Assembly: GCA_944383975.1 (NCBI GenBank)
Contig: CALWRN010000063.1
Location: 1-47,999 of the forward strand
Length of the DNA: 47,999 nucleotides
Reading direction: 5' to 3'
Source: an uncultured Clostridia bacterium
GTDB taxonomy: Bacteria > Bacillota > Clostridia > Christensenellales > UBA1242
Numbering within the stretch: position 1 is the first letter of the stretch; each line of letters opens with the position of its first letter. Of the stretch, positions 1 through 44,476 are shown in pieces. Both the position numbers and the translations under genes were made by a program. The notes below the pieces were generated by a model. It worked only from the letters and a program-made list of their open reading frames with translations, was not told the DNA's origin and did no database searches.

Positions 1-3000
1 CATTAATATCAATACGATTTACAGAGGCTGAAGCATATCCAACTATAGATCCTATGTTTATAGATGGTTTTTCTTGTTCTTCTTTTCCTTCAATACGGAT
101 TGAATTTCTTGTGCTTATAGTAGAGTCATTTATGTAAGTAGTAGAAGCTGTGCCTGTGAATGAGAACTGTGCCTTTGTCTCTCCAATAACAACACCAACA
201 TTAGCATTATTAACTTTTACAGCTCCATTATAGTTTGATGTTTTAAGATCATTTTTATTTAATTTAACATAATCTAGACCATCATCAACTATTTCAAAAT
301 TAATTGAATTTAATTCTGATAATTTTACTGCTCCTCCATTATTAGACCCAATAATACCACCAGCAACCAAGTTTCCTATGCTTAAGTTTGTATTATTTTG
401 TTGATCTACATACAAACCACCTTCAACAGTTGAATTTTGTCCATCAAAATTTAGTGATGGTGAATCTTTTTGTCCAATAAGCAATCCTGAATATAGATTT
501 TGAATGTTAGAATCTCCATTAATAAGGAAATTCAATTTAATATTTATAGTCTTCTCTTCAAATGTTCCTAAGACTCCAAGACCTTCAACTTTTCCGATAT
601 ATCCACCAAGATATAATCCACCATCTGTTGCTGTTTGAGTTACATTACCTAACAATATGTTTGTATCAAGTATTTCACCAGCATTTGACTTAGAAATTAA
701 ATCTGTGATTGTCAATCTTAAATCTTGAGCATTTTCACCAATTTGAGTCTTCCCAAAATAACCACCAACATAATAATTTTTAGCACTTGAATTATTTAAA
801 GAAATTAAATCACTTAATAACTCAAGTTTAATTCCTTCAACCTGCATTATTGAGATTGAACTATTTTGAATTAACTCTCCAGCAATTAACCCTGCATAAA
901 TTTCTTCTTTGTCATTTAATCCATTCAATTGCAATAATGTAAAACTATTTTGAGAGGTTTTTAAAGTCAAATTAGTTATAGAAGAACTTGTTATGCTTGG
1001 TGCTACAACTCCTATTTTTATATTTTCTCCTGTGGTCTTTGTTCCATCTACCATTATTGGAGCTTGAATATCTAAAGTTACATTAGATACATTTATTTCA
1101 GTTGCTGCACTCTTAATCAATAAACCAGCATTTCCCTGTCCATCATCTGTAAGATTAATTACACCATTTTCACCTGTATAGGTTATTGTTAAATCTTCTA
1201 TAGAGAACCCTGTTCCTACACTTGTTATGAAATTGTTTTCTGCAATAATCTTTACATCTTCTTTAGTATTTTCATCTTTATAACCTTGTCCTATAATACG
1301 TCCAGAAAAACCACTTATAGAAGGTATTTCTACACCATACTCTTCTTCTATTGCTTTTAAATTTATGTCTTTATATATATTTTCAGCATTTTCACTTTCA
1401 AGTCCTCTTACAACTACTGTATAATTTGCACCACCAGAAAGCATTGCAAACACTTCCGCAGCATTGTAATAATCAAGATAAATAAAATCAGTAGTTCTTT
1501 GATATTTTATACTTGGGAATAGTTCGTCAGATGGATGCGTCCAGTTTGCTGTCGCCCAAGCACCAGAATTTAAGAAACCTTCTTGAGTATAAGAGTGACC
1601 AGATTCAGCACTATTATATAGACTTGGTGAAGCAATCGCATAAAGATATTCTTGTGTTACACTTTCGTTTTCACTATTTACCATTTGTGCACTATAACCA
1701 TCAAAGACATTTAAAGTGATTTCAAAACCATTTGCTAAATAGTTTTGATAATAACCTATAGAAGGAATATTAACTTGTACAAGGTCTCCACCATCTCCTG
1801 TGCTATCAGAACCTTCTGTATCACTTCCTGCCCCAGCAGTATTTCCGCTAGCTTCTTCTTTTGCTTGCATAAATGTTAAATACATTGAATAATTGTTTCC
1901 ACTAACAACTGAAGAATCTGAATTAATAAAATCTCCAACCATAGAATTTACTTTATAATTGATTGATGCATTTCCTGCAGCTAAAACATTTCCATATTCT
2001 TTAGTTAAATAATTATAAGTTGTGAAATAATTGAATGCATTAACAGCAAGAAGAGAAACTCTGCTTCCTTCCCCTTTAATTGCACCAATTAAACCACCTG
2101 CACGACCAATTTCATTATTTAAGTTTACTCTGACATCGCCTGTTGCATAGGCTTCATTTATAAAATACCTTGTGTAAGATGGTTGAGCAGCTAAATCAGT
2201 ATCAGCTTGATATGATTTTGCATCTACCAAATCCATAATACCAACAAGTCCACCGGCATATCTTGCAGTTGGAGATGTTGCATTTAATTTTGAATAAGAA
2301 ATTTCAAGTTTTCCACTTCCTACATAACCGGCAATTCCACCAATAGCTTCTTGACTGTATTCACCATCTGTGGTGCTGAACAAGTCAAGAATACCTCTTT
2401 CCATTTGAGTGTTGCCCATATAGAAATTAGACATATTGTTTTCAATTTCATTTTGTGTGTTTTCACTATGAACAGAGAATACTCTGCTTAAAGTTCCAAA
2501 GGCTTGACCTACAACACCACCTGCAAAATATTTAGTTGCAATAATGTGAGAAGAATTGCTTGAACTACTTCCATCTATAGTAATACCAGCATCTCTTACA
2601 TGTGTTTGATAGCCTGTTAAACCAAATATACCACCTGCAACTTGTGCTTGTATATTTACTATACCAGAAACTCTTATGTTATTTATTGAATAAGTGTCTG
2701 ATTGATTTATGTTAAATTCTGTGCTTTCAACAACATAATTATCAACAAAACCAATAGCTGCACCAGCATAAGAGTAATTTTGCATATTCTTTATTGTAAG
2801 TGAATTTATTGAAGTGCTATAGTTTAAATCATTTTTAAGCCCTGTTCTAAATGGTGCAAGACCTACAGATGTAAGATAATCACTATCTGTTGAATATGAA
2901 TATCTATCTGCTGTTACTGTTGGTGAGCTTATAGTGATATTTTTAATAATATTATTTCCAAATGTTAAACCAGCAAGTCCACCGGCAAAATTCAAACCAG

Positions 3001-6000
3001 TTACAGAAGAGTTTTCATTAAATATTAAATCTATATTAACTATTGTTGAATCTTTAATATAACCAGCAAGTCCACCTACCATAACAACATCACCAGCTAT
3101 AACTTGATTTAAAGTTATATCTAAGTTAGTTATTATTGGAGTTGAGCCTTTTCTGCTTTCAATTGAAGAGAATAAACCAAATGAAACTCTTGAAGTATCT
3201 GAAGTTATAGAAATTCCAGAAATTTCAAAACCATTTCCATATATAATTCCTGCAAAAGACTTCATAGTAGAAGGTAATACTACAGAATTATCACTAGAAA
3301 TAAGTTTAGATAAGTCAATATCGTCTACCAAACGATAAGTTCCCCAAATCATTTCATCATCAAAATATGCATTAACATATGATGAAGTAGATGTTCCTGT
3401 AACCTCAATGAAATCTTGATAATCAGCAACTAATATAGGGTTTGATTTTGTTCCTAAAGAAGTGTTGATCTCAAGTCCTGTTTCCAAGAATTGTAAAGTT
3501 GAGTAAGGAAGAATATATTTTCCTTGTTCATTTTCTCCAACAATTCCGTCATAATCAGAATTATCATCTAAATAATGAGTATATCTATGAGAGTGTGAAA
3601 TATTATTTGTTTCAATTAATGTTATGCTTGTCTTTGTTTTGCCTTCACTATCAGCGCCAACATTTTCTTTTCTCCATATACCATCATTTTCACCATCAGC
3701 AATTGCAAATCCATAGAAGTTTGATATATCTGATGGGTTTGTAACCATCAATGCACCTGTTCCGAATTGTGATTCAGTTGTTGTATCATTTGTATCTTCA
3801 AAAGATTCATATGCTTTATTAAAGAAATAACAATTTGTATATGTGCCTTCTGCAAGCAAGTTTCCTTCATTATCAACACCAGAGAAGTTCATTTGAGTGA
3901 ATTTAGAATTTGTAATTTGTGATGCTGAATAACAATTTTCAAGCACACCTCTATTTATATATACAAAACCAGAAGCGAGATAAACTCTGCTTGTATCTGT
4001 TGAATTAGATATAAGTATATTTGAATAAGAATCTTTAACATTACCATTGTTAGTGTATATAAATCCAACAACATATCCTAATGTTGATTTAATTGAAGAA
4101 CCTTCTTTTGCATAAACAGAGCGTTCTGCAACTGTGTTAGGAGTATCAACACCTTCAACATAACTTGTAATAATTGAACTGCTGTTGCTTCCAGCAAATC
4201 CTGAAGTATAGAAGTCTGTTGATTGTGACTTGTTATCCATGTCAAGTTGTTTTACAAAAGATGAAGCAATTGCCCCTGCATTTGATAAAACAAATCCTGC
4301 CATATTTCCTTGTCCAACAATATTAAATGTTCCTAATTTTAATGTTGAGGCATAAGTATATCCAATTGGAGAGCCATTCTCTAATTTTTCACTATCTATG
4401 ATTGTGATTGAATCGCCACCAACTCTTGAATTTGTTATGCTTCCTTGATTTGTTAAAACAAAACCAGCAATATTAGATGTCCATTTAGAATTTTGAGTTA
4501 AATATACTTCCTCTGTAGTGTTTCTTCCATTTATATATTTAACATTAATTCCTGTAGGATTATTGTGTAATAAGCAAGAATCAACCATAAGTACATCGCC
4601 CATTTCTCTTTCTTCTGAATAGAATGCAACGACTTCACTATTTGTGATTGTTCCTCTGTTTGTAATTGCAATACCTGCAATATTAATTGAGGTATATCTA
4701 GAAATATCAATTGTAAGTTGTCCACCATTATATAAGTTTACTCTTACATTCTTTAATACTGTGCTGTCTGCAACTGTATTGAATAAAGCAAGATTTAATG
4801 TATTGCTTTCTGGTTCTACATTAAAGCTCTTAATAAATATTGTATAACCATTTCCATCTAAACTTCTAATCATAGAAGAATCAAATGGAGTAAAGTTTTC
4901 AAGAACGATATCGTTTGTTAAGATATAATCATTTTGACTGATTTCATCATAATTTGCAGGGTTTAAGTTCTTAAATTGTGAAGCATTTGAAATTGTTAAA
5001 GGTAAATCAGGGTCAGAGTAAGCCTCTACTGTAACTGTGAAGTGTGTTCTATATTCTGAAGTTAATCCACCTGCAGAAATATATGTTTTAAGAACAAGTT
5101 CTACTGTCGCACCCATTGTTTTACCAACAACTACAACATCGTCCCCGCTTTGTATAAACTCAATAGGACTGTTTTCTACAACTGAAGCATCATTAACATG
5201 AACAAGTTCATTACCATTTATAACATAATAGAGTCTATCCACTAAGGTTTGAGCTACTGGCTCTTTAGTGTTTTCATCATAAACATAGTTTATTAAATAA
5301 TTTGAATTTTTTGCATCTTGTTCATTTGCTGGATAATATAATTTTGTTGCAAAACTATTTCTTGCAGCCATCAATTCACTAACAACATTACTGCTTTCTT
5401 CGTCACTTGCATCATAATTATATTCTTCAGGTATTAAATTATAATTTACATCAAAAGTTTTTGGAACGCCAAGCCATACCTCTATATGATTGTCATCTGA
5501 ATTTGCTATTTCAACATTATTTGTATCAACTTTAAAATCAACTAATACTACAGTGGCAGTTGTAACTTTAGATTCAACAATTCCGTTTAAATCTCTATTA
5601 ACAGTTGCTTGAACATAGAATGTATCGTTTGCTGATTCTGCTACACCTGCAAGAACACTTGCTGATAATGTTGCAGTATAGGTCTTAGTTCCTTTAATCT
5701 CATCAATTATGCCTTCGCTTAAAGAAGAAATATTAATTCCCCTTACATCATCACCGACAACAATAGGAGATTCTACAGTTTGGTCAGCAAGAACAGTTAT
5801 TTCCACTTCAGCAGAAGAGCCTTTTGCTAAATATGCTGTATCTTTTCCATCAACTGTAATAATTGGTTCTTTAAGATAACTGATTGAAAGATAGTAATTT
5901 ACAAAAGTTATTTCATTTCCTTCACTTTCGTTAAATCTAATTGTAAATTTGATTGTGCTATCACTATTAACTGTTGAATTAATCCATAATTTGAAATAGA

Positions 6001-9000
6001 TTACACCTGATTCCTTCTCGTCTGCAGTTGGTGTAAATCTTAATGCAGAACCAACTGTTTGAACATTAGAATCTGTAGCTCTTGCAAATCTATCAGTTCT
6101 TCCATTATAAGGTTTAACAAGTTCAATATTTACTGCGTTTGAAACTGTTGCGCCACTATATGAAATATCCATGTAGTCATAATATGCAAAAGATGGGTTT
6201 ATATTAATTTGTAAAATTGAGCTGTTTCCAGGTGCTAAAACACCAGTTTTTGATCCTGTTTCATGAACAGTTACATATTCATTTCCCTCTTTTGAATAGT
6301 AAGAGTTTGTTATTCTTATGTTGCTTACATCAACATTTGTAAAGTTTTGTTTTGTTATAGTAAGGTCAAAACTTCCATTAGTTGTTCCGTCCCTGCTATC
6401 GTTTCCACTCTTGCTTATGAATGAAACATTAAATACAAAGTCGTCTGATATTCTGTTTTTATAGCTGTTATTTACTGCAAAGTTGACATCGTAAATAAAT
6501 GTATAAACACCATTTTCTGGATTTAAAGGATTTGATACTAATGAAACTCTTGCATCTAAGATATAGTTAGCAGTTCCTTCATCTTTTGGAAGAAGATAAC
6601 TATATAAACTATCTTGTCTTAAGATTGATAATTCTTCATCATTATATCTAACTTGTGGAATTATATAATCGTCTTTATCTGTAGTTTCTATTTGAACTCT
6701 AACTGTTCCATTTGTTGAAGGAGTTATTGGAAGATTATTTCCAGATATTTCAAATGTAATTACACCATCAACAGGGATAATGTTAAAGTTTCTTGCAAAT
6801 GTTTTATTAATTGCATTTTGATATTCTTCTGATTTGAAAATCTTTTCACTTTCACTATCATCATCGCCTACAGTTTGATTTTCAAAAACAACTGCAGATA
6901 AATTAACTTTTGTTTCAACAGATGTGTCATTGGCTGTAAATTTAAATACTTCGTTACTAATTTTCTGATAACTAATCAATGTTTGATTGCTTTCTGTATT
7001 TCCTGAAAGCGTAATTGTCATATTAATATTATCATTTTCAACCAAGTCAAATCTTTGAGCAGTATTTCCAAGAATTACTGAAGTTTTTTCAAAGTTTACA
7101 ATATAATCTCTTGTCTTTGTTTTTTGTAAATATGATAAAGAATCATTCTCTACAACATTTGTATAACCAGATACATCAGTCCAAGAAACAACAATGTCAG
7201 ACATTGCATAAATTACTTTTACATATATTTCTTTATTTATGCTTACGTCTTGCTTAGAAGATAAAGTCAATATAACATCACCAGTTCTATTTACAACTAT
7301 ATCACTTCCAACAATTTTTAAAATGCTTGAAGAAGATGAAGATATAATAATATTTCTGCTGATATTATCTTGTCCAACAAGTTCTGCTAAACTTATTGTA
7401 TTTAACTCATTTATATCATTTTGTTCAGAAGTTGTTAAATCATTAGGATTATCTTTTAATTTATAATTAAATAATATTCCTTGATTACCACTAACACCAA
7501 TAGCCTTATAATATCCATTTGTGAATGTGGTATCAGTTGTTTGTATGCTATAACCTGAAACATCGCTTACTTTTTCATCTTGATATAAATCTTTTAAGTG
7601 AGCTTTTCCATTATTTACATAACTTAAGAAACCAGTTTCGCCCTCTTCAACATAATTATCATTGATCATTACATCATCTGGTAAATATAATGTTGTATAG
7701 ACATTCACTGCATAATAACCAATGTATGAATTTGTAATTTTTACCTTTTCATTTTCATTTACATAACCGAAATATGGATTACCTTCGTTTAAAACTGAGA
7801 ATGAATAGTCAATTTTTGTAACATCTGGGGTTGTATCATCAACAGCACCAGCAAAGTTTCCTGTTTGAGCGCTTGATGCATAACCAATTAAAACGCTTCC
7901 ACTATCGCTTGAGATATTATAATCATAAACATATGATCTTTCTATAGTTGAACCATTAAGAATTTTACCTACAAGTCCACCTACAGTATAACCTGTAAAT
8001 GTATTTGCAATATACTTATCATCTTCTGTTGTAGAATTTCTGTTTGCAAGTTTGTAAAATTCAACTACAGCCCCTCTAATAATTCCGGCATTTTGTCCTG
8101 CAATTCCACCTACGAATGTATCGTTATATGGAACATCTATTGTAAGTCCAAGAACACGAGAATTTTCAATTAAAGAGTTGTTGATTCCAGCAATTCCACC
8201 TACATTTGGAACATTTCCATTAGTTATAGTAAGTGTGCTTGAATAAATATCATCAACATCAACTGTAACATTAGAGATTGTTCCTTCGTTGTTACCAACT
8301 ACGAAGCCTGCGTTATTTGTAACATTTCCAGAGAATGTAATATTTCTTATAGTCGCACCTTGTGCAAGAAGGTCTGTGAAGTTGTAACCATTTAATTTAA
8401 CTGTAACATCACTGCTATAGCCTTGAAGACCACCACTAAATGTCATTCTATAGTTTTCATTGCCTAAAGAAGCCCCTGTCAAATCAATACTATTCATTAC
8501 TGTATAATATAGATCTGATTTCATTCCTACAAATCCGCTTGCATCATAAATTCTATAAGCATGTTCAAAACTTCTTCCGTCAGCTACTGTTACCTTGATT
8601 TTTAAGAGAACATCAGCAAAACTTATATTTTTTTCACTATCAGCACTTGTTATTGATTTAAAATAACCCTCTTCAACAAGATATTCATACCATGTTTGTT
8701 GAGTTGAAACATCTTTGATTGTGCCTAAAGCTGTAACTGAAATTGAACTGCTTTTTTCTTTGTCGTTATCTAAATAATAGTATTTTATAGCATTATTGTA
8801 AATTGCATCTTCAGGTAAAACATAAATGTAGCCAATCATTCCTTCATTTATCATTGAAGGCAAGTTAACTGCCAATGTATTTGCAGAATAATTGCTTGAT
8901 ACACTTACAAAATCAGTTGTATATCCACCATTTTCATCAGTAACAATATATGCCATATTGTTATTCTTTGCATTTGTTGGTGAAGTTTGAAGCAACATAT

Positions 9001-11800
9001 AATAAGGATCTTTTGTTCCAACCTCAAAATATATTCCATCATCATCGCTATTTTCCCAAATAACACTTTCTATTCTTTGTGCATTTTTAATAGTGATAGA
9101 AATTGGAGTATAAATATCAGTTACAACCTTTCCTGCTTCATTTTTTAATATATAGTGAACTAGCAAATCATCGTAAAAGGCATGGTCACTCATAGTTGTA
9201 AGAGCCACCACATCAAAGCTTAATGAATTTGAAGTTCTTGAAATATTTGTTATTGAATAGCGTCCATTTTCCCATGTTATGCTATTTCCACTTATAGTTT
9301 GTTCTCCCATAACAGGATTTCCATTAGAATCACTTCTAAGTGAAACAAACTCAAAGTTAGACATATCATAATATGTAACTTGGCTATTGCTAAAGTTAAT
9401 AGTAATTCTTTTTGTTGTTTCATCTTGATCTCTTGTTGCAACTGTATCGTTTGCATAAAGAGAAACTTGTTTATTTGCATTTGGAGTTATATTTAATCCA
9501 TCTGGACCAACATAACTTTCAATTAAGATAATTCTTATTAATGTTACATTTCCATTATCATCAACATTATCTACACCTTTTCCAGTGAAAGATAAAACTG
9601 CATATGTAAATCCAACACTCTTTGTTATAATATTTGAGTTATTGTTTGAGAAATTTGCAACTCCACTTATTTGTTCAACATTTTCTCTAGATTTATTGAT
9701 AATTTCTGCTACACCAGCAGGACTATTAATTAAGTTTTTATATTCTTGCAACTCAAGTCCAGATTGAGAATAATCATAATAAGAAACAGATAATTTTGCT
9801 ACAGCATTTTGGCTTCCAACTAAATTATAAGAATAAATAACAGGTGTTGTTGATCCATTCTTTAGCATCAATCTTGAAACACTGTTAGAAGCATTGTCGT
9901 ATAATACTTCTCCTGTTGTAGAATAAATGATATTTGAATAATCTCTATCGGTAACTGAGTTTGAAACATTTTTTGTATCTTCTAATACACCAACATTTTT
10001 AAGTGGTAAGAAGATATCAATATTAAATTTATCGCTTATCAATCCATTTTCATGTGCTATTTGATAAGAATCTAAAGAAGTTACACCATAGCTTGTATTT
10101 TTTAAAGTTAAAACAATGTCAAATGTAACAGAATCTTCGTCGTTTGAAACTTTCTGAGGAGCAGAAATGTCAACATGTTGACTATTGTTAATGATATATA
10201 ATCCCTCTACACTTGTTTGTCCTTTAAGTGTAAATGTTTTTCTTATTGTAACTCCAGTTTGAACACTGCTGTCAACTCTAAAATCAGCATCTTCAAATAC
10301 AAAATCATTAATTGAAACACTTCTTACAAGTTTTACATTAAATGATGTAGATACTTCATTATTATCTTCACTTGTAAAAGTTAAAGAAATTCCGCTATAA
10401 GATTGAACTTTTAAAGTGCTAGATGCTTTAATATAAATTTTATTTACATTTGGCAAATTATTTTCGGTTGTAACATAATCACCACTAGCAGGGTCTTCAA
10501 CTAATGGAATTTGTGTCCAGATATTGCCATTTAATGTATCTCTATACCAAATTTCAACAGGACAGCCTTCTGCAATAGCCTCACCTGCACTCTCTCTATG
10601 AACTGAAATTGAATATCTGTTTGTTGCACCAATAACAGTTGTTGGTGTTATTGAAACATTAAATTCTTTACCTTTTTCAGAAGTCCCTGCATAATCAGTA
10701 TATATTGTTTGCTCACTGCCTTCAATATTTCCTGCATTACCAGTAGATATTACAATTCCATTTACTTTTTCTCTTAAACTAATGTTAATTGGACAAGTAG
10801 CAAGAGAATTAATTGAATAATCGTAATTTGTATATCCAATTTCAAAATATATGATATAATCTCCGTTAATATTTACCTTATCTTTATTTGCGTAAACTTT
10901 AAATAAAGGTCTGTCATTATATTGAGCATATCTAACAACGGTAACATCTGTTGTTTCAACACCCGCTTTTGTTGTTACAACAGGAGTAATGTCCAATTCT
11001 CCAGCATAATTAACACTGATAAATCCTTCATAGAAATCATCTGTAGGAACATTTGGAACAATAGTATAACTTTGATTTGAATCTATTTCTTGAAATTCAC
11101 TATTTTCGCTATAAGACCATTCAAAAGAAACATCTGATTCAATTTGACTAACTACAGGTAAAGTAATTAAAGTTGAAATTCCATTTTCTGTAGTTGCTTT
11201 AAGAATAATTGAATCTTGTAGATATTCATTAGTTATAGTCAATAAATTTCCATCAATACTTGCACCAGTCATTTCTTGAGTGTCATTTTCAAATGTCCAA
11301 GTAATTGTTCTTCTACTATTTTGAGATGGTTGGAATTCAATTAAATTATTTTCAATTAAAGTATTCGTCATTCCTCTAATTGCAAAGTTTTTCTTCTTTG
11401 TTACTTCTTCAGTCTTTTGAGTCATTGAAGTAACTTCACTATAAACATCAACTGTTATAGTTTTATATGCATTGCCTTGGTTTGTTCTAACAACAACTTC
11501 AGCATATCCTTCTTTAAGACCTGTAATTGTAATTAGTGTCTTTCCAGAAGTTGTTGGCTCGGTTGATAATTTTACAATATTTTCATAACCATTAGCACTA
11601 ACAGAAATAGAGGTGTCACTTGCATTAGAAACCTCAGCAGTTACTGTTTCATAACCACCGTCAACATCTCCAGAATATAATTCTATCTCCACACTTTGTT
11701 GTGATAGAGTAAGCACAGGTTTTTCACTTCCACAAGCTGATAAAATAGAAGCACCTACTAAAAGAAATATACTTAAAAGTCCGACGAAAAACTTTTTCAT
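1..11800 (-). CDS. Giant GLUG-repeat surface lipoprotein (C-terminus outside window)
   Basis: The reading frame stays open from an ATG at 11800 to the window edge, at least 3933 codons. The start has an AAGGAGGTAAA ribosome site (11801-11811). The N-terminus is a lipoprotein signal: MKK, a hydrophobic stretch, then lipobox L20-S-A-C23-G, so Cys23 should be lipidated and the protein held on the outer face of the membrane. Residues about 25-1150 are Ser/Thr/Asn-rich beta-type sequence resembling bacterial Ig-like domains. GLUG-type motifs (G-G-[LI]-[AV]-G-x-N-x-G-x-I-x-x-[SC]) form three clusters, near residues 1195-1290, 2370-2620 and 2900-3250, with looser copies near 3590-3830. Each of the last two clusters follows a segment like the usual preamble (LTNDIVLENF near 2295, LVDDIDLSKL near 2825). 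Such repeats occur in large adhesin-like surface proteins, often of beta-helix type. The ligand is unknown. It is transcribed away from ttcA and looks like a single-gene unit. Confidence 0.93.
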   Translation of the reverse strand, partial: MKKFFVGLLSIFLLVGASILSACGSEKPVLTLSQQSVEIELYSGDVDGGYETVTAEVSNASDTSISVSANGYENIVKLSTEPTTSGKTLITITGLKEGYAEVVVRTNQGNAYKTITVDVYSEVTSMTQKTEEVTKKKNFAIRGMTNTLIENNLIEFQPSQNSRRTITWTFENDTQEMTGASIDGNLLTITNEYLQDSIILKATTENGISTLITLPVVSQIESDVSFEWSYSENSEFQEIDSNQSYTIVPNVPTDDFYEGFISVNYAGELDITPVVTTKAGVETTDVTVVRYAQYNDRPLFKVYANKDKVNINGDYIIYFEIGYTNYDYSINSLATCPINISLREKVNGIVISTGNAGNIEGSEQTIYTDYAGTSEKGKEFNVSITPTTVIGATNRYSISVHRESAGEAIAEGCPVEIWYRDTLNGNIWTQIPLVEDPASGDYVTTENNLPNVNKIYIKASSTLKVQSYSGISLTFTSEDNNEVSTSFNVKLVRSVSINDFVFEDADFRVDSSVQTGVTIRKTFTLKGQTSVEGLYIINNSQHVDISAPQKVSNDEDSVTFDIVLTLKNTSYGVTSLDSYQIAHENGLISDKFNIDIFLPLKNVGVLEDTKNVSNSVTDRDYSNIIYSTTGEVLYDNASNSVSRLMLKNGSTTPVIYSYNLVGSQNAVAKLSVSYYDYSQSGLELQEYKNLINSPAGVAEIINKSRENVEQISGVANFSNNNSNIITKSVGFTYAVLSFTGKGVDNVDDNGNVTLIRIILIESYVGPDGLNITPNANKQVSLYANDTVATRDQDETTKRITINFSNSQVTYYDMSNFEFVSLRSDSNGNPVMGEQTISGNSITWENGRYSITNISRTSNSLSFDVVALTTMSDHAFYDDLLVHYILKNEAGKVVTDIYTPISITIKNAQRIESVIWENSDDDGIYFEVGTKDPYYMLLQTSPTNAKNNNMAYIVTDENGGYTTDFVSVSSNYSANTLAVNLPSMINEGMIGYIYVLPEDAIYNNAIKYYYLDNDKEKSSSISVTALGTIKDVSTQQTWYEYLVEEGYFKSITSADSEKNISFADVLLKIKVTVADGRSFEHAYRIYDASGFVGMKSDLYYTVMNSIDLTGASLGNENYRMTFSGGLQGYSSDVTVKLNGYNFTDLLAQGATIRNITFSGNVTNNAGFVVGNNEGTISNVTVDVDDIYSSTLTITNGNVPNVGGIAGINNSLIENSRVLGLTIDVPYNDTFVGGIAGQNAGIIRGAVVEFYKLANRNSTTEDDKYIANTFTGYTVGGLVGKILNGSTIERSYVYDYNISSDSGSVLIGYASSAQTGNFAGAVDDTTPDVTKIDYSFSVLNEGNPYFGYVNENEKVKITNSYIGYYAVNVYTTLYLPDDVMINDNYVEEGETGFLSYVNNGKAHLKDLYQDEKVSDVSGYSIQTTDTTFTNGYYKAIGVSGNQGILFNYKLKDNPNDLTTSEQNDINELNTISLAELVGQDNISRNIIISSSSSSILKIVGSDIVVNRTGDVILTLSSKQDVSINKEIYVKVIYAMSDIVVSWTDVSGYTNVVENDSLSYLQKTKTRDYIVNFEKTSVILGNTAQRFDLVENDNINMTITLSGNTESNQTLISYQKISNEVFKFTANDTSVETKVNLSAVVFENQTVGDDDSESEKIFKSEEYQNAINKTFARNFNIIPVDGVITFEISGNNLPITPSTNGTVRVQIETTDKDDYIIPQVRYNDEELSILRQDSLYSYLLPKDEGTANYILDARVSLVSNPLNPENGVYTFIYDVNFAVNNSYKNRISDDFVFNVSFISKSGNDSRDGTTNGSFDLTITKQNFTNVDVSNIRITNSYYSKEGNEYVTVHETGSKTGVLAPGNSSILQININPSFAYYDYMDISYSGATVSNAVNIELVKPYNGRTDRFARATDSNVQTVGSALRFTPTADEKESGVIYFKLWINSTVNSDSTIKFTIRFNESEGNEITFVNYYLSISYLKEPIITVDGKDTAYLAKGSSAEVEITVLADQTVESPIVVGDDVRGINISSLSEGIIDEIKGTKTYTATLSASVLAGVAESANDTFYVQATVNRDLNGIVESKVTTATVVLVDFKVDTNNVEIANSDDNHIEVWLGVPKTFDVNYNLIPEEYNYDASDEESSNVVSELMAARNSFATKLYYPANEQDAKNSNYLINYVYDENTKEPVAQTLVDRLYYVINGNELVHVNDASVVENSPIEFIQSGDDVVVVGKTMGATVELVLKTYISAGGLTSEYRTHFTVTVEAYSDPDLPLTISNASQFKNLNPANYDEISQNDYILTNDIVLENFTPFDSSMIRSLDGNGYTIFIKSFNVEPESNTLNLALFNTVADSTVLKNVRVNLYNGGQLTIDISRYTSINIAGIAITNRGTITNSEVVAFYSEEREMGDVLMVDSCLLHNNPTGINVKYINGRNTTEEVYLTQNSKWTSNIAGFVLTNQGSITNSRVGGDSITIIDSEKLENGSPIGYTYASTLKLGTFNIVGQGNMAGFVLSNAGAIASSFVKQLDMDNKSQSTDFYTSGFAGSNSSSIITSYVEGVDTPNTVAERSVYAKEGSSIKSTLGYVVGFIYTNNGNVKDSYSNILISNSTDTSRVYLASGFVYINRGVLENCYSASQITNSKFTQMNFSGVDNEGNLLAEGTYTNCYFFNKAYESFEDTNDTTTESQFGTGALMVTNPSDISNFYGFAIADGENDGIWRKENVGADSEGKTKTSITLIETNNISHSHRYTHYLDDNSDYDGIVGENEQGKYILPYSTLQFLETGLEINTSLGTKSNPILVADYQDFIEVTGTSTSSYVNAYFDDEMIWGTYRLVDDIDLSKLISSDNSVVLPSTMKSFAGIIYGNGFEISGISITSDTSRVSFGLFSSIESRKGSTPIITNLDITLNQVIAGDVVMVGGLAGYIKDSTIVNIDLIFNENSSVTGLNFAGGLAGLTFGNNIIKNITISSPTVTADRYSYSTDSDYLTSVGLAPFRTGLKNDLNYSTSINSLTIKNMQNYSYAGAAIGFVDNYVVESTEFNINQSDTYSINNIRVSGIVNIQAQVAGGIFGLTGYQTHVRDAGITIDGSSSSNSSHIIATKYFAGGVVGQAFGTLSRVFSVHSENTQNEIENNMSNFYMGNTQMERGILDLFSTTDGEYSQEAIGGIAGYVGSGKLEISYSKLNATSPTARYAGGLVGIMDLVDAKSYQADTDLAAQPSYTRYFINEAYATGDVRVNLNNEIGRAGGLIGAIKGEGSRVSLLAVNAFNYFTTYNYLTKEYGNVLAAGNASINYKVNSMVGDFINSDSSVVSGNNYSMYLTFMQAKEEASGNTAGAGSDTEGSDSTGDGGDLVQVNIPSIGYYQNYLANGFEITLNVFDGYSAQMVNSENESVTQEYLYAIASPSLYNSAESGHSYTQEGFLNSGAWATANWTHPSDELFPSIKYQRTTDFIYLDYYNAAEVFAMLSGGANYTVVVRGLESENAENIYKDINLKAIEEEYGVEIPSISGFSGRIIGQGYKDENTKEDVKIIAENNFITSVGTGFSIEDLTITYTGENGVINLTDDGQGNAGLLIKSAATEINVSNVTLDIQAPIMVDGTKTTGENIKIGVVAPSITSSSITNLTLKTSQNSFTLLQLNGLNDKEEIYAGLIAGELIQNSSISIMQVEGIKLELLSDLISLNNSSAKNYYVGGYFGKTQIGENAQDLRLTITDLISKSNAGEILDTNILLGNVTQTATDGGLYLGGYIGKVEGLGVLGTFEEKTINIKLNFLINGDSNIQNLYSGLLIGQKDSPSLNFDGQNSTVEGGLYVDQQNNTNLSIGNLVAGGIIGSNNGGAVKLSELNSINFEIVDDGLDYVKLNKNDLKTSNYNGAVKVNNANVGVVIGETKAQFSFTGTASTTYINDSTISTRNSIRIEGKEEQEKPSINIGSIVGYASASVNRIDIN

Positions 11801-12216
11801 TTTACCTCCTTGTTTAATATCTGTAATTTCAAGATATTTAAACATAAACCATCAAATTTCAACTATCGTTTTTTTGTTTTACAACAAGAATTGAAAATAT
11901 TTTTTGCCTTAAGAAATTAAAAAACCTCCAAAAACTTTAAGTAATGCTTTGCAGGTAATGTTTCATTTGTTTTATTTGTTTAAAGAAGAATTTTTAGTTT
12001 TACTTAAGCCAATAACATTAGAAATCAGATTAATAAAGCAACACAATTCTTGTATAGAAAGATTATACATTTTTAATATTAAAAATGTCAAATAAAATAG
12101 ATATATTAAATATTATAAATAATAAATACTTTTCTTGTATTTTTTAATATTGAAATAAATTAAAACATTTTAAAATTTATTTTTTTAAACATATTTATTT
12201 ATTTTTTAATTAATTT
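11801..12216. other. Divergent intergenic region, lipoprotein gene / ttcA
   Basis: This 416-bp gap separates two divergent starts. It holds the ribosome site of the lipoprotein gene (11801-11811) and, at its right end, leads into the ttcA promoter. No strong promoter for the lipoprotein gene can be assigned: several TTGAAA- and TATGTT-like hexamers exist on the minus strand near 11840-11860 but spacing is poor. The rest is AT-rich sequence without a gene-sized ORF, tRNA or clear hairpin. Confidence 0.6.
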
Positions 12217-12272: not shown

Positions 12273-12983
12273 ATGCAAAGAATTTTGAGTGCCTTAAGAA
12301 AAGCATGCGAAGAATACAACCTTATTGAAGATGGAGATAAAATTGCTGTTGGCTTATCAGGTGGAAAGGATAGCTTAACACTTCTTTATGCCCTTAGCCT
12401 ATATCAAAAATATTTTGACAAAAAGTTTTCTTTAGAAGCAATAGCTGTTGACTTAAGTGGTGGGAAAAACGACTATTCTGAGATAAAAAAGTTTTGTGAT
12501 AAGATAAATGTAAACCTTACAATTGTTCCATCAAATATTTTTGAAGTTGTTTTTGATATTAGAAAAGAAAAAAATCCATGTTCATTATGTGCAAATATGC
12601 GCCGTGGAGCCTTAAACAGCACGGCAAAATCTTTAGGTTGCAATAAAGTGGCTCTCGGTCATCACAAAGATGATATGATTGAAACATTTTTAATATCTTT
12701 ATTCTTTGAAGGAAGATTGTCAACTTTCAAACCAAAATCCTATCTTACAAATACAGGGCTTTATGTAATCAGACCTTTGATTTATTGCGATGAAAAAGAA
12801 ATAGTAAGAGTAAGCAAAGATTTTCCTATTCTTTTTAATATCTGCCCTGCAGATAAACATACAGAAAGAGAAAATGCAAAGGGTATTTTAAATGAATTGA
12901 ATACATTATACCCTGACAGCAAAGAAAAAATTTTTAATGCAATAATTCATAAAGAAAGATATAATTTATACGATAAAATATAA
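12273..12983 (+). CDS. ttcA: TtcA-like tRNA 2-thiolation protein (PP-loop ATPase)
   Basis: A 236-residue member of the PP-loop ATPase family closest to TtcA, which thiolates cytidine 32 of tRNAs using an Fe-S cluster. Visible are the PP-loop SGGKDS (residues 29-34), the CSLC motif (Cys103, Cys106) followed by the family's RRGAL sequence, the GHHKDD motif (129-134), and a third cysteine (Cys191) in the NICP motif. The three cysteines are those expected to hold the cluster in TtcA. It is shorter than the E. coli enzyme (about 310 residues), as many Firmicutes homologues are, so the exact tRNA position modified is uncertain. It stands alone between a divergent lipoprotein gene and gpmI, which has its own promoter. 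Family confident; precise substrate inferred. Confidence 0.88.
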   Translation: MQRILSALRKACEEYNLIEDGDKIAVGLSGGKDSLTLLYALSLYQKYFDKKFSLEAIAVDLSGGKNDYSEIKKFCDKINVNLTIVPSNIFEVVFDIRKEKNPCSLCANMRRGALNSTAKSLGCNKVALGHHKDDMIETFLISLFFEGRLSTFKPKSYLTNTGLYVIRPLIYCDEKEIVRVSKDFPILFNICPADKHTERENAKGILNELNTLYPDSKEKIFNAIIHKERYNLYDKI

Positions 12984-15630: not shown

Positions 15631-15706
15631 TGGTGGCCTACCCGGGATTCGAACCCGGGACCCCTTGATTAAAAGTCAAGTGCTCTACCGACTGAGCTAG
15701 TAGACC
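15631..15706 (-). tRNA. tRNA-Lys (anticodon TTT)
   Basis: A 76-nt cloverleaf with 7-bp acceptor stem (GGTCTAC / GTAGGCC, one T-G pair), discriminator A and encoded CCA. The anticodon loop CTTTTAA carries TTT, and the T arm is GTTCGAATCC. It is the last gene of the tRNA operon, directly before the terminator. Confidence 0.97.
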
Positions 15707-15715
15707 AAAAATATT

Positions 15716-15792
15716 AAACAAAAACTTATATTAAAATAAAATATTGAGGGAGAGAAATTTGTTTTCCAATGAAAACATATAAGTTTTTGTTT
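15716..15792. repeat. 16-bp perfect inverted repeat in the tRNA spacer
   Basis: The left arm at 15716-15731 (AAACAAAAACTTATAT) is matched exactly by its reverse complement at 15777-15792. The 45-nt interior holds a second perfect hairpin (GTTTTC / GAAAAC at 15761-15776). The element fills the spacer between tRNA-Gln(TTG) and tRNA-Lys; its right arm overlaps the last base of the tRNA-Gln CCA by one position. It may be a processing structure, a partial terminator or the trace of a small insertion. Confidence 0.85.
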
Positions 15793-15866
15793 GGCTGGGG
15801 TGGCAGGATTTGAACCTACGAATGCAAGAATCAAAATCTTGTGCCTTACCACTTGGCGACACCCCA
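15792..15866 (-). tRNA. tRNA-Gln (anticodon TTG)
   Basis: A 75-nt cloverleaf with acceptor stem TGGGGTG / CACCCCA, discriminator G and encoded CCA. Anticodon stem CAAGA / TCTTG encloses loop TTTTGAT with anticodon TTG. It shares the acceptor and D arms of the neighbouring tRNA-Gln(CTG), which suggests an old tandem duplication. Confidence 0.97.
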
Positions 15867-15891
15867 ATATTGTCGCTTATTTCCCCTACTA

Positions 15892-15967
15892 TGGCTGGGG
15901 TGGTAGGATTCGAACCTACGCAATGTTGGAATCAGAATCCAATGCCTTACCACTTGGCGACACCCCA
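15892..15967 (-). tRNA. tRNA-Gln (anticodon CTG)
   Basis: A 76-nt cloverleaf with the same acceptor stem (TGGGGTG / CACCCCA), D arm and CCA as the next tRNA-Gln. Anticodon stem TTGGA / TCCAA and loop TTCTGAT carry anticodon CTG. A dedicated CAG decoder is a mild surprise in so AT-rich a genome. Confidence 0.97.
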
Positions 15968-15987
15968 TCAATTTTAGGAATGTTTTA

Positions 15988-16064
15988 TGGGGTGATCTAA
16001 GGGGGTCGAACCCTTGACCTCCAGAGCCACAATCTGGCGTTCTGCCAACTGAACTAAGACCACC
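15988..16064 (-). tRNA. tRNA-His (anticodon GTG)
   Basis: A 77-nt cloverleaf. The anticodon stem CCAGA / TCTGG encloses loop TTGTGGC with anticodon GTG. The extra 5' G (G-1) opposite discriminator C73, the identity mark of tRNA-His, is encoded at 16064. CCA is encoded. Confidence 0.97.
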
Positions 16065-16074
16065 ATAGTTTTTT

Positions 16075-16151
<77 letters not shown>

Positions 16152-16156
16152 CCATA

Positions 16157-16230
16157 TGGAGCAGGTGAAGGGAATCGGACCCTCGCAACCAGCTTGGAAG
16201 GCTAGTGTTCTACCACTGAACTACACCTGC
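16157..16230 (-). tRNA. tRNA-Gly (anticodon TCC)
   Basis: A 74-nt cloverleaf with acceptor stem GCAGGTG / CACCTGC, discriminator T and encoded CCA. Anticodon loop CTTCCAA carries TCC. It is the first gene of the operon, starting 16 bp after the -10 box. Confidence 0.97.
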
Positions 16231-41584: not shown

Positions 41585-44476
41585 TTATACACTTACCTTT
41601 GTATAAACATAATATTCACCATCTTCAGCTTTTGTAAAATTGCTTTCATTGTTTAAATATGTGTTTGTATTATCAGGGTTATCAACAATACTCTTTAATA
41701 CTTTTATTGTTCCTGCGTTTTCAACTAAATAACCACAAGCCATTTCATTTAATAATGATTTATAGACATTTGTATTTTCAATTATAACTTCAGATAAATT
41801 TATACATCCCAAAAAGGCCTCATTCTCTATTTGAAACTCGCCATCTTTTATAACAACTTTCTTTAAGTATTTATAATTTCTAAATGAAGTGGTGCTTACA
41901 TTTGATTTTATTTCTATTTCTGTAACCAATTCCCCGTTTATAAACAATTTGTTACCCAACCCGTCTCCATACATTTCAGAATAATCAAACAAACTTCCAC
42001 CAACAAAATTTATTGCCATAAATTTGTCAAGCGATCCTTGATAATAGAAATCTGTTGTTCCAGTAAAGTTAAATGATGGATTTAATCGTATTTCTTTAAT
42101 TGTTTCAGGAATTATCATTGTCTCTGCAAATCTACCCCCAATAAAGTCTCCATCATGAACAATCGTATCAATAGCAATATCATCACCTTTAACAGCATAA
42201 AATGTTGAGTACACAATATTTCTATAATATATTGTATCGCCATCTTTTATATTAAACTTAAGCATAAATTGTTCAATATCATTAAAAGCATCCGAATCAA
42301 AGTCAAAATCATTGAGTTTTATCGTTTCCCATGATCCATTTTCCCCAACTTTATAATCAAATGAATATACCATATTAACCGGCAACATTGCAAAAGGTGA
42401 AATAGACATTAAACTAGAAATCTCGCCCTCTCCATTAATTTTAAAAGTACTTTCATAATTAGTTGGAAGAATTATTTTTGTTATATCATTCACGTTTGAT
42501 ATCTCTGGGGACATATTCATATTTCCATTTTCATCCACTGTTATAAATGGTATTGGGTTTTCGTTATCTTTTACATATACATATGCATTCGCTAAACGTA
42601 AAATAATATAAATCAATCCCTCAAGTGATAATCCATAGTTTTCATCATATAATGAATTTAACGAATCTGAATTTTGCATATCAATTTCATAATCTATTGG
42701 ATAAACCAATAAAGAATATGATGAAGGGATTTCAGGACTAAATGTTGTTTCACCTTCATAAACATTATCATCAACTCTTTCAACAGCAGTAAATTCGTAA
42801 TGCAAAGTTATATCGCTTGATGGCATTTCAAATGAAAAATCTTGAATATTAATATTAACTTCAGTGTTTGAATCATCAAAATAATAAAGTCTAGACAATT
42901 TATAAATTGTATCGTCGGTTATGGTTGGTGACACAAGAATAGTAATTTTTTCACTTTTACGAATTCTTGTATATTTAGAAACTTTTATACTTCCTCCCTC
43001 AACCACGTCTTCACTTACATTGATTTTATAAAAGTTAAACTTATAAACATAATAATCTTCTTCCATCTCTTTTATTGCATTTTCGGGATTGTTCAAAAAG
43101 TCATTGTTTTCGCTATTTGCATCAATACTCTTTAATACTTTTACTATTCTTGAATTTAAAATTAAATCTCCACAAGAATAAATATCCTTCAAATTGAGAT
43201 ATACTTCACTACTATTCAAAACAACTTCTTCCAACCCTAAGCAACTGAAGAACGCTCCATCTTCAATAGTTGTTATTGTGTCAGGAATTATAACTTTTTC
43301 AAGATCTTGGCAATTATCAAATGCATTTGCTGAAATGTTTGTAACTGAAAAATCATCACCTTCTATAAACAATTTTGAATTCATGCTTACTTTTATAGGA
43401 AAATCACTCTCAGTAGGAGAGCTCAATTTCTCATCTAATTCAGTCATTTGACTCATTATATTTTGAAAATTTATCTTATAACTTTTTTCTCCAAGTTGAC
43501 AATCAAAAGAATCTATTACACCTGATACACACCAATATATAGGTCTATATAAAGAAGCAATCAAATCATTGTTATCCAAGTATTCTTGATATGTAATTTC
43601 ACAATTCACATATTCTACCTTTGCAGGAAAATGCTTATTTATCTCTTCATTAGTTTGTCCTAATGTTGCTAAAAATTCTTCTATATTTTTAACAAAAACA
43701 GGTTCAGAATCTTTTAATGTTATATTTAAAAAGCCAACCATCAACATTTCTGCATTAATATTCCCTTGATCTGCAAGCGCAATAACTTCTTCTATATTTT
43801 CAAAAGTAAAACTATTTACAAATTCAATTGTCATAGGGAAATATTGTTCTTCTTCTCCATTGCCAAAACTTCCAAAAAACTCTTCTGCATCTTTAACAAA
43901 GACTTTTTCTTGTCCGTTCAATTCAACATAATAATATCCACCTAATATGTATGCTTGTCTAATTTGTCCAAAAGTTTTTTCTGTAATATAATTTTCAAAT
44001 TCTTTGGCAGTTTTAAATGTTATACTATTAAATTTTATTCCATTGTCAATATATGAATATGATGAAGGAATGTCTATCGTTTTACTTGAACTATTTACAC
44101 TCATTAAGGTATTATTTGCAAAAGTAAACTCATTATAAATCTTTAAAAATTTTGCTTCGTAATTTCCTTCCTTATCTCCATCAATTTGAAATGTATATGG
44201 GTTTTCATTGCTTATTTTTTCACCATTAAAAAGCCAACAATCAAAGATATACCCATCTACATCATTTGCAACAATTGTGACAGTTTCTCCTTCTTCATAA
44301 TCGCCACCACCAACTAATGATGCATTATCAATTTTTGATGAAAGACTTATATTAACTTTTCCATCATCTCTAGGTATTAAGAAAAATAATAATAAAGCAG
44401 CCAAAAGGATTAAAACTATTGAACCCCCTATAAATATCCACTTTTTATTATCTCTTTCTGCTTTTTCTTTTACCAT
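41585..44476 (-). CDS. Membrane-anchored repeat and leucine-rich-repeat surface protein
   Basis: A 963-residue protein. A single membrane anchor (residues 13-34) follows a charged, cytosol-facing N-terminus; the rest is predicted outside. Residues 40-112 resemble an InlB-type or bacterial-repeat domain (EGETVTIVANDVDGYIFDCW). Residues 152-222, 223-293 and 294-367 are three related modules of about 70 residues, each ending in a conserved FP-x(5)-V pattern. Leucine-rich repeats of BspA type occur around 376-425 (FDNCQDLEKVIIPDTITTIEDGAFF) and 880-912. Two nearly alike cap segments with KVLKSI and YYVY motifs close the LRR units (431-478 and 914-960). Ligand unknown; an adhesion or host-interaction role is inferred. 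AAAGGAGGGG precedes the ATG. Single-gene unit. Confidence 0.88.
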   Translation of the reverse strand: MVKEKAERDNKKWIFIGGSIVLILLAALLLFFLIPRDDGKVNISLSSKIDNASLVGGGDYEEGETVTIVANDVDGYIFDCWLFNGEKISNENPYTFQIDGDKEGNYEAKFLKIYNEFTFANNTLMSVNSSSKTIDIPSSYSYIDNGIKFNSITFKTAKEFENYITEKTFGQIRQAYILGGYYYVELNGQEKVFVKDAEEFFGSFGNGEEEQYFPMTIEFVNSFTFENIEEVIALADQGNINAEMLMVGFLNITLKDSEPVFVKNIEEFLATLGQTNEEINKHFPAKVEYVNCEITYQEYLDNNDLIASLYRPIYWCVSGVIDSFDCQLGEKSYKINFQNIMSQMTELDEKLSSPTESDFPIKVSMNSKLFIEGDDFSVTNISANAFDNCQDLEKVIIPDTITTIEDGAFFSCLGLEEVVLNSSEVYLNLKDIYSCGDLILNSRIVKVLKSIDANSENNDFLNNPENAIKEMEEDYYVYKFNFYKINVSEDVVEGGSIKVSKYTRIRKSEKITILVSPTITDDTIYKLSRLYYFDDSNTEVNINIQDFSFEMPSSDITLHYEFTAVERVDDNVYEGETTFSPEIPSSYSLLVYPIDYEIDMQNSDSLNSLYDENYGLSLEGLIYIILRLANAYVYVKDNENPIPFITVDENGNMNMSPEISNVNDITKIILPTNYESTFKINGEGEISSLMSISPFAMLPVNMVYSFDYKVGENGSWETIKLNDFDFDSDAFNDIEQFMLKFNIKDGDTIYYRNIVYSTFYAVKGDDIAIDTIVHDGDFIGGRFAETMIIPETIKEIRLNPSFNFTGTTDFYYQGSLDKFMAINFVGGSLFDYSEMYGDGLGNKLFINGELVTEIEIKSNVSTTSFRNYKYLKKVVIKDGEFQIENEAFLGCINLSEVIIENTNVYKSLLNEMACGYLVENAGTIKVLKSIVDNPDNTNTYLNNESNFTKAEDGEYYVYTKVSV

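Follow-up and report, generated by a model that had tools for sequence, protein, structure and literature searches.

A giant lipobox-bearing protein with predicted beta-helix modules and a variable distal region in an uncultured Clostridia bacterium

How would a bacterium with a genome of only about 1.1 Mb hold a protein of several thousand residues at its surface, and what would such a protein be for? The question is raised by contig CALWRN010000063.1 of an uncultured Clostridia bacterium (assembly GCA_944383975.1), of which positions 1 to 47,999, here called the window, were analysed. Base 1 of the window is base 1 of the contig, and from it the minus strand holds an open gene for a giant protein with the N-terminal signal of a lipoprotein. 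The gene takes up about 19.8 kb of the 1,125,277 bases of the genome, so that about 1.8% of a small genome is spent on one putative surface protein. We consider it rather probable that the product, about 6,590 residues long, is strongly expressed and serves as an adhesin-like fibre at the surface, tethered by a lipid and variable in its distal region. The host is probably a gut Clostridia bacterium of reduced genome, belonging to the GTDB family UBA1242, as suggested by family genomes of 0.6-1.7 Mb, by the Clostridia and Christensenella titles of relatives and by a published account of UBA1242 (PMC12306168). No paper describing the giant protein was found among the top-ranked open-licence results of a literature search on the protein family and its host.

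The giant frame and its lipid anchor signal

The minus-strand frame runs from ATG 11845 to base 2 and comprises 3,948 codons without a stop, being open at the contig end (open reading frame (ORF) listing). The other five frames of bases 1-11845 contain 211-507 stops each, and their longest stop-free run is at most 91 codons. The GC fractions of the three codon positions in the giant frame, 0.41, 0.37 and 0.14, fit a coding frame in AT-rich DNA. The ATG at 11800 is likely to be a better start than that at 11845, given the aggaggt ahead of it (the sequence at the preferred start is aggaggtaaaATG). It is also the position at which an earlier note, made from the letters of the window, had ended the unbroken frame.

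The frame continues on another contig of the same genome (G000), C49. The last 394 bases of C49 equal window bases 1-394 at 379 of 394 positions, and the first 111 are identical. The joined frame codes for 6,593 residues from ATG 11845, or 6,578 from ATG 11800, and stops at C49:71236-71238. The earlier note's figure of more than 3900 residues was therefore correct as far as the contig reached; with the C-terminus found by extension onto C49, the protein would be about 6,590 residues long. The 15 mismatches suggest that two strains are present in one assembly, and they leave the exact sequence near the join uncertain. Outside support for the join comes from synteny. The stop on C49 is followed by a RadC-family gene (PF04002, E 9.7e-22), and a radC match is present in 31 of 95 target sequences (18 genome pieces and the 77 loci described below; some genomes occur twice and many targets end before the radC region). 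In three relatives (G004, G008 and G031) radC lies within about 100 bases past the stop of the giant frame. Giant-protein residues 1-2990 have one match in G000, which indicates a single copy there.

Relatives were also sought in a contig collection. A search with the single sequence found nothing, and one with an alignment gave 77 named loci, the best of 149 confirmed stretches. Their titles read Clostridia, Clostridiales, Firmicutes/Bacillota, Eubacteriales or 'Christensenella sp.', and the sources named in them include roe deer, water deer and 'Lapin'.

The N-terminus of the giant protein has a basic n-region, MKK, and a hydrophobic core, followed by a lipobox, ILSAC, which ends at residue 38 (Cys38) and had been recognized in the earlier note. 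A lipobox-like motif is found by a lenient pattern in 103 of 106 frames and by the strict pattern [LVI][ASTVI][GAS]C in 74 of 106. These frames are 34 from sampled genomes and 72 of the 77 loci, five loci that are open at the 5' end having been dropped; some genomes occur twice. Two of the three frames missed by the lenient pattern (L134 and L165) seem not to start at the N-terminus, and the third (L154) has a long upstream extension. Lgt (PF01790) is present in 58 and LspA (PF01252) in 59 of the 61 sampled genomes of the genus, and both are found in G000 (E 1.9e-69 and 4.1e-36, respectively). Sortase (PF04203) is present in two of the 61 (G004 and G036) and has no match in G000, a genome that is 94% complete. 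Neither LPxTG nor NPQTN was found in the giant protein by a motif search. With these counts the lipid anchor is the expected route, and the earlier view that a lipid anchor in place of a wall anchor is unusual at such a length is not supported. As far as the motifs tell, giant frames of this lineage normally carry a lipid-anchor signal, and the one seen here is no anomaly; such signals on proteins of 6,000 residues appear routine where sortase is nearly absent. The giant protein is probably lipidated at Cys38.

The gene also has a sigma-A/sigma-70 promoter of consensus sequence (Table 1), at a distance of 291 bases from ATG 11800, compared with about 80-130 bases in most relatives. The promoter scan as a whole gave five promoter-like sites against a shuffle mean of 5.3, which is no excess, but the score of 12/12 is exceptional. 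In 66 upstream regions of relatives (drawn from the 77 loci, the others being too short, duplicate or without a recognized start) the best promoter score was 12 in 25 and 11 in 35, together 60 of 66; shuffles scored 11 in 2.6% of cases and 12 in 0%. A comparison set of 104 ORFs (150 codons or longer, taken from five contig sets) includes 15 with a score of 11 or 12, the giant gene being one of them; the comparison is rough, since many of these ORFs are internal to operons or perhaps no genes at all. Judged by its promoter, the giant gene would be strongly transcribed.

Modules along the chain

The giant protein is predicted to consist of five linked beta-helix modules and an array of immunoglobulin (Ig)-like domains, and not of one long beta-helix. 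The AlphaFold model of residues 2290-3310 (68 sequences) has a pLDDT of 91.7 and a pTM of 0.90 and is composed mainly of short beta-strands. Foldseek comparison of this model with the Protein Data Bank (PDB) gives PL6 lyases, an IgA1 protease-like chain, IgA1 proteases, antigen 43, PfbA and phage tailspikes. The model of residues 1000-2110 (61 sequences; pLDDT 88.5, pTM 0.65) is read as block 1 in its first part and the Ig-like array in the rest, and the array model matches Ig, cadherin and S-layer domains. The Ig-like domains for which the earlier note had suggested a search are thus predicted in one of the two modelled pieces and beta-helix in both, but its very long beta-helix-like fibre holds in part, since the beta-helix blocks are mixed with the Ig-like array. 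The membrane-proximal residues 39-1000 have no Pfam match and no PDB profile match.

The blocks are related to each other. In profile-profile comparisons with hhalign, block 1 matches blocks 2, 3, 4 and 5 with E-values of 2.6e-17, 6.9e-10, 7.8e-6 and 1.3e-13, block 2 matches blocks 3 and 5 (5.1e-6 and 4.5e-8), block 3 matches blocks 4 and 5 (1.4e-11 and 3e-16), and block 4 matches block 5 (1.1e-7); these values are for single comparisons, and a shared beta-helix composition may inflate them. Blocks 2 and 4 have no direct link (probability 0.3%), and the Ig segments match none of the blocks (at most 0.2%). A candidate sixth module near the C-terminus is weak, with probabilities of 4.5-47% against blocks 1, 2, 3 and 5 and 0.2% against block 4. 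These links from block to block support modular duplication, which the earlier note had proposed from its repeats. The LTND-like preamble that it had described stands before blocks 2 and 3, and a weaker form, YYTVMNSIDL, before block 1. Block 4 has conserved GxxxG pairs spaced 37-55 residues apart. The best conserved 100 residues, 2301-2400, lie inside block 2.

The relation of the blocks to the GLUG motif is uneven. The pattern [GA][GA][LIVFA][VIAL]G occurs 11 times in the frame, against a mean of 0.5 and a maximum of 3 in 1,000 residue shuffles. In the whole 3,947-residue frame hmmscan finds no match to PF07581 (Glug) at E<=1, but residues 1000-2110 scanned as a piece match it in two stretches with E=3.3e-7 and 30.7 bits (cut-off 20.5). 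In a genome-level scan positions 7928-7993 are at the cut-off (20.5 bits with neighbours) and 8246-8302 below it (11.6 bits), and at E<=0.001 that scan gave no match. Blocks 2 and 3 in the window (1916-4978) match no Pfam family at E<=10; of 29 aligned copies of this region, six match Glug at E<=10, the best at 0.0018. The three GLUG clusters seen earlier therefore correspond to three beta-helix blocks, of which block 1 alone reaches the PF07581 threshold, and a fourth block starts before the window ends. No NCBIfam model matches the giant frame at E<=1, three pieces (A2, A3 and A4) gave no match in PDB-sequence profile searches, and two pieces gave none in PHROGs at E<=0.01. Weak relatives of the beta-helix modules (25-32% identity) occur on four viral contigs (L168-L171).

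Table 1. Features of the giant gene and its upstream region in the window
Feature	Position	Strand	Basis or remark
Giant lipoprotein gene, N-terminal part	1..11800	-	Open at contig end; continues on C49 of the same genome
Beta-helix block 4, start (residues 3470-3947 of 3470-4180)	5..1438	-	Profile similarity
Beta-helix block 3 (residues 2795-3290), preamble YRLVDDIDL	1976..3463	-	AlphaFold, profile comparison
Beta-helix block 2 (residues 2290-2730), preamble YILTNDIVL	3656..4978	-	AlphaFold, profile comparison
Ig-like array (residues 1450-2270)	5036..7498	-	AlphaFold to residue 2110, Foldseek
Beta-helix block 1 (residues 1090-1420)	7586..8578	-	PF07581 match; part of AlphaFold model 1000-2110
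Membrane-proximal region (residues 39-1000)	8846..11731	-	Putative Ig-like array
Signal peptide and lipobox (MKKFFVGLLSIFLLVGASILSAC)	11732..11800	-	Cys codon 11732-11734
Shine-Dalgarno sequence aggaggt	11804..11810	-	3 bases before ATG 11800; read in the sequence
Sigma-A/sigma-70 consensus promoter TTGACA-18-TATAAT	12062..12091	-	Upstream of the giant gene; 12/12 matches
PP-loop gene (PF01171, E 1.5e-17)	12273..12983	+	Divergent upstream syntenic marker; Pfam and tblastn

Occurrence and divergence in relatives

A search with the single sequence matched 36 of 61 genomes, all 36 among the 37 genomes of the genus (the exception, G030, is 84% complete) and none among 24 genomes that each represent a different other family of the order. 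Single contigs of other genomes contain complete orthologous frames, which are 6,059-7,702 residues long. A profile of residues 2290-3310 was run against 200 genomes of the order and matched 55 of them at E<=1e-10. Ten of these belong to the genus and three to other genera of the family, all with near full-length matches, and 42 come from other families and have short and partial ones; the list of the 145 non-matching genomes is incomplete. Some of the partial matches, too, fall in long frames (for example, 8,009 residues in G228 and 7,393 in G133), so that giant beta-helix frames are not confined to the family. Five genomes of other families (G228, G133, G052, G180 and G166) hold such matches in frames of about 4,000-8,000 residues.

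Within the family the same profile matches 83 of 118 genomes and 33 of 42 genera at E<=1e-60, and 72 of the 92 high-quality genomes (at least 90% complete and at most 5% contaminated). The matching frames have about 2,000-8,750 residues, some of the shorter ones probably being cut at contig ends and some representing a second copy. By a hand count of the listed rows, 27 family genomes have a contig that carries two giant frames on the same strand, no more than about 20 kb apart, and such pairs suggest an old tandem duplication. Two still longer frames, of 30,488 (G028:C2) and 26,158 residues (G036:C1), were dropped because runs of N had been read as open, a caution for any scan that lists frame lengths.

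The sequence changes along the chain. Of 14 planned orthologue pairs one was skipped for unknown residues and one proved to be the same genome under two names; 12 were left, some of them with a genome in common. When identity is taken in steps of 500 residues, these pairs have higher values as far as about residue 3500, and in all 12 the C-terminal end is less alike than the N-terminal one; the values fall, for example, from 96 to 45-60%, from 85 to 22% and from 90 to 60-65%. The ratio of nonsynonymous to synonymous substitution rates (dN/dS) in five close pairs is 0.06-0.11 up to residue 3300, 0.11-0.23 at 3300-4300, 0.18-0.34 at 4300-5100 and 0.24-0.43 beyond; in two pairs saturation of dS left five cells without a value. 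The inner half is under strong purifying selection. No region reaches a dN/dS of 1, and diversifying selection is therefore not shown. The C-terminal end is often rich in Gly. The peak Gly window lies in the last 600 residues in 17 of 23 complete orthologues, or in 20 if ties go to the last window, and mean Gly is 12.3% in the last 500 residues compared with 8.5% elsewhere. The 23 were chosen from 29 long orthologues and do not include G027 and G035, although these look complete too.

On the upstream side synteny is provided by the PP-loop gene, presumably TtcA-like. It has a match that is divergent from the giant frame and within about 1.2 kb upstream of it in 44 of the 77 loci (tblastn), including the distant loci L154, L160 and L162; several other loci have little upstream sequence.

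Other proteins of these genomes bear on the subject. A second giant lipoprotein of G000 (C56:6347-16135, plus strand; L045-L046) has 3,258 residues and a lipobox FTAC, and a GLUG-like block lies towards its C-terminal end. When 2,992 of its residues served as query, 40 of 61 genomes of the genus matched at E<=0.001, some of them weakly. An 801-codon frame (G000:C31:7049-9451, plus strand; L047) has a signal peptide and a sub-cut-off GLUG match (16.6 bits); with its basic tail and a membrane span at the C-terminal end it represents a different style of anchoring. Glug matches occur at E<=0.5 in all 61 genomes of the genus and above the cut-off in 56, many of them in frames of about 700-1,600 residues, and the GLUG motif thus appears to be expanded in the genus. 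In the window itself a 963-residue protein (41585-44476, minus strand), probably another surface protein, has BspA-type leucine-rich repeats (PF13306) and an InlB B-repeat-like domain (PF18998) and likewise stands behind a 12/12 consensus promoter. Six clustered tRNA genes (Lys, Gln, Gln, His, Arg and Gly; 15631-16230, minus strand) are ordinary.

Candidate roles and known systems

An N-terminal lipid signal, constraint on the proximal part and change in the distal part form the pattern expected of a tethered fibre with an exposed contact region. The pre-protein would be exported by Sec, and Lgt and LspA would fix Cys38 to the membrane. The conserved N-proximal region may span the cell wall, while the GLUG beta-helix modules and the Ig-like domains would hold the faster-evolving, often Gly-rich C-terminal half outside the cell, where it would touch a partner cell, mucus or a food particle. 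What was observed is a conserved frame under purifying selection, a lipobox together with Lgt and LspA in the genome, modules that are related to each other, a gradient of divergence and a promoter sequence, joined by the predicted folds of residues 1000-2110 and 2290-3310; from these we infer lipidation, surface exposure, wall crossing, strong expression and adhesion.

Several results weigh against this picture. Residues 39-1000 have no profile link to the modelled Ig region (probabilities 6.2% and 1.4%), so that 'Ig-like' stays an inferred name for them. Among the 50 Foldseek matches listed for the beta-helix model, one has E<=0.001 and the TM-scores are 0.07-0.40, which supports the beta-helix class and no closer kinship. 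Identity does not fall steadily, for in several pairs it rises again near residues 4000-4500. In the three closest pairs dS climbs distally too, and part of the gradient may therefore be due to recombination, relaxed constraint or alignment error. In this genome the tail is only moderately enriched in Gly (14 of 60 residues). The family counts are counts of modules, including those of a second, shorter giant copy, and not of strict orthologues. Finally, at E<=1e-60 the profile finds nothing in 35 of the 118 family genomes, of which 20 are among the 92 of high quality, and the family can therefore live without the giant protein.

The lipid-tethered fibre could have a wider meaning, which we put forward tentatively and regard as somewhat doubtful. 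It might be the main contact organelle of the whole family, often with two copies per genome, in which a conserved, strongly transcribed stalk carries a fast-diversifying distal half that sets partner or host specificity; genera without the fibre would have changed partner or lifestyle. UBA1242, of the order Christensenellales, has been described as a family of reduced genomes that depends on partners, and it has been argued that it must obtain metabolites from the environment or from other cells (PMC12306168). The same paper mentions hypothetical membrane-bound proteins and no particular contact protein. If the host belongs to UBA1242, the giant gene is a concrete candidate for one; its distal half would predict the site of specificity, and its patchy absence would offer a natural comparison.

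A structural coat is an unlikely alternative. The protein would then be a lipid-anchored, S-layer-like or wall-spanning shield, the outer half of which was diversified by phage or immune pressure and not by ligand choice. The consensus promoter and the wide occurrence in the family agree with such a role, and the Ig-like array matches the S-layer chains Sap, SbsB and EA1 among others. However, cadherins, KIT and PrgB match the array equally well or better, so the match speaks for the Ig class only, and the S-layer homology domain is absent from Pfam scans of the giant-protein pieces. Beta-helix modules are also more usual in binding proteins or enzymes.

That one of the beta-helices is a catalytic unit, like that of a polysaccharide lyase or a protease, seems to us quite improbable. 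The best Foldseek E-value does belong to a PL6 alginate lyase (7dmk; E 1.7e-4, probability 0.41), the third match is an IgA1 protease-like chain (3n6z; E 1.1e-3, probability 1.00), and Peptidase_M26_N matches two of the 29 aligned copies, the best at 5.1e-5. Yet the HExxH zinc site is absent from all 6,593 residues, neither the window frame nor the C49 part contains a catalytic Pfam family at or above its cut-off, and at TM-scores this low the PL6 likeness is a resemblance of fold only. Very improbable is a polymorphic toxin or contact-dependent inhibitor whose C-terminal warhead could be exchanged. It would account for the most variable part being C-terminal, but divergence is spread over about 3,000 residues with no sharp border, Pfam finds no toxin family in the C49 part, and the next gene, here and in the relatives that cover this stretch, is radC and not a small immunity gene. 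An artefact, either a chimeric contig or a spurious long frame, is hardly credible: the window does end within the gene, the C49 overlap does differ at 15 of 394 bases and two even longer frames in relatives did turn out to be runs of N, but orthologous frames lie whole within single contigs elsewhere, purifying selection acts on the frame and synteny is kept on both sides.

The adhesin-like, lipid-tethered fibre can be set beside several known systems. Bacterial lipoproteins processed by Lgt and LspA share with it the lipobox, the short basic n-region and the presence of both enzymes in the genome, and differ in size. With the GLUG-motif proteins of PF07581 it is connected through block 1, which reaches the family cut-off, whereas blocks 2 and 3 of the window are too divergent for the Pfam model. 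Sortase-anchored adhesins of the MSCRAMM type have an Ig-like stalk as well (the Ig domains of PrgB are a Foldseek match), whereas the giant protein lacks LPxTG and its genome, G000, yielded no sortase. The beta-helix of IgA1 proteases (3n6z, 7uvl, 6xja and 7uvk) resembles the modelled one with Foldseek probabilities of 0.54-1.00 and E-values of 1.1e-3 to 0.16; the giant protein differs by the missing zinc site and the low TM-scores.

Similar in size are Giant1-5 of Apilactobacillus kunkeei, extracellular proteins of 3,000-8,000 residues from a symbiont genome of 1.5 Mb (PMC12863079). Giant size, a small genome, beta-solenoid and Ig-like parts and a discussed role in adhesion are common to both (PMC12863079). 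Features of their own are a Sec/SPI signal peptide, an N-terminal beta-solenoid (Giant1-4) and a C-terminal DUF5776/SH3b-like region (PMC12863079); neither the window frame nor the C49 part matches the DUF5776 or SH3 families of Pfam at E<=1. Unlike the Apilactobacillus giants, the protein described here has an N-terminal lipobox and carries several predicted GLUG beta-helix modules along its chain.

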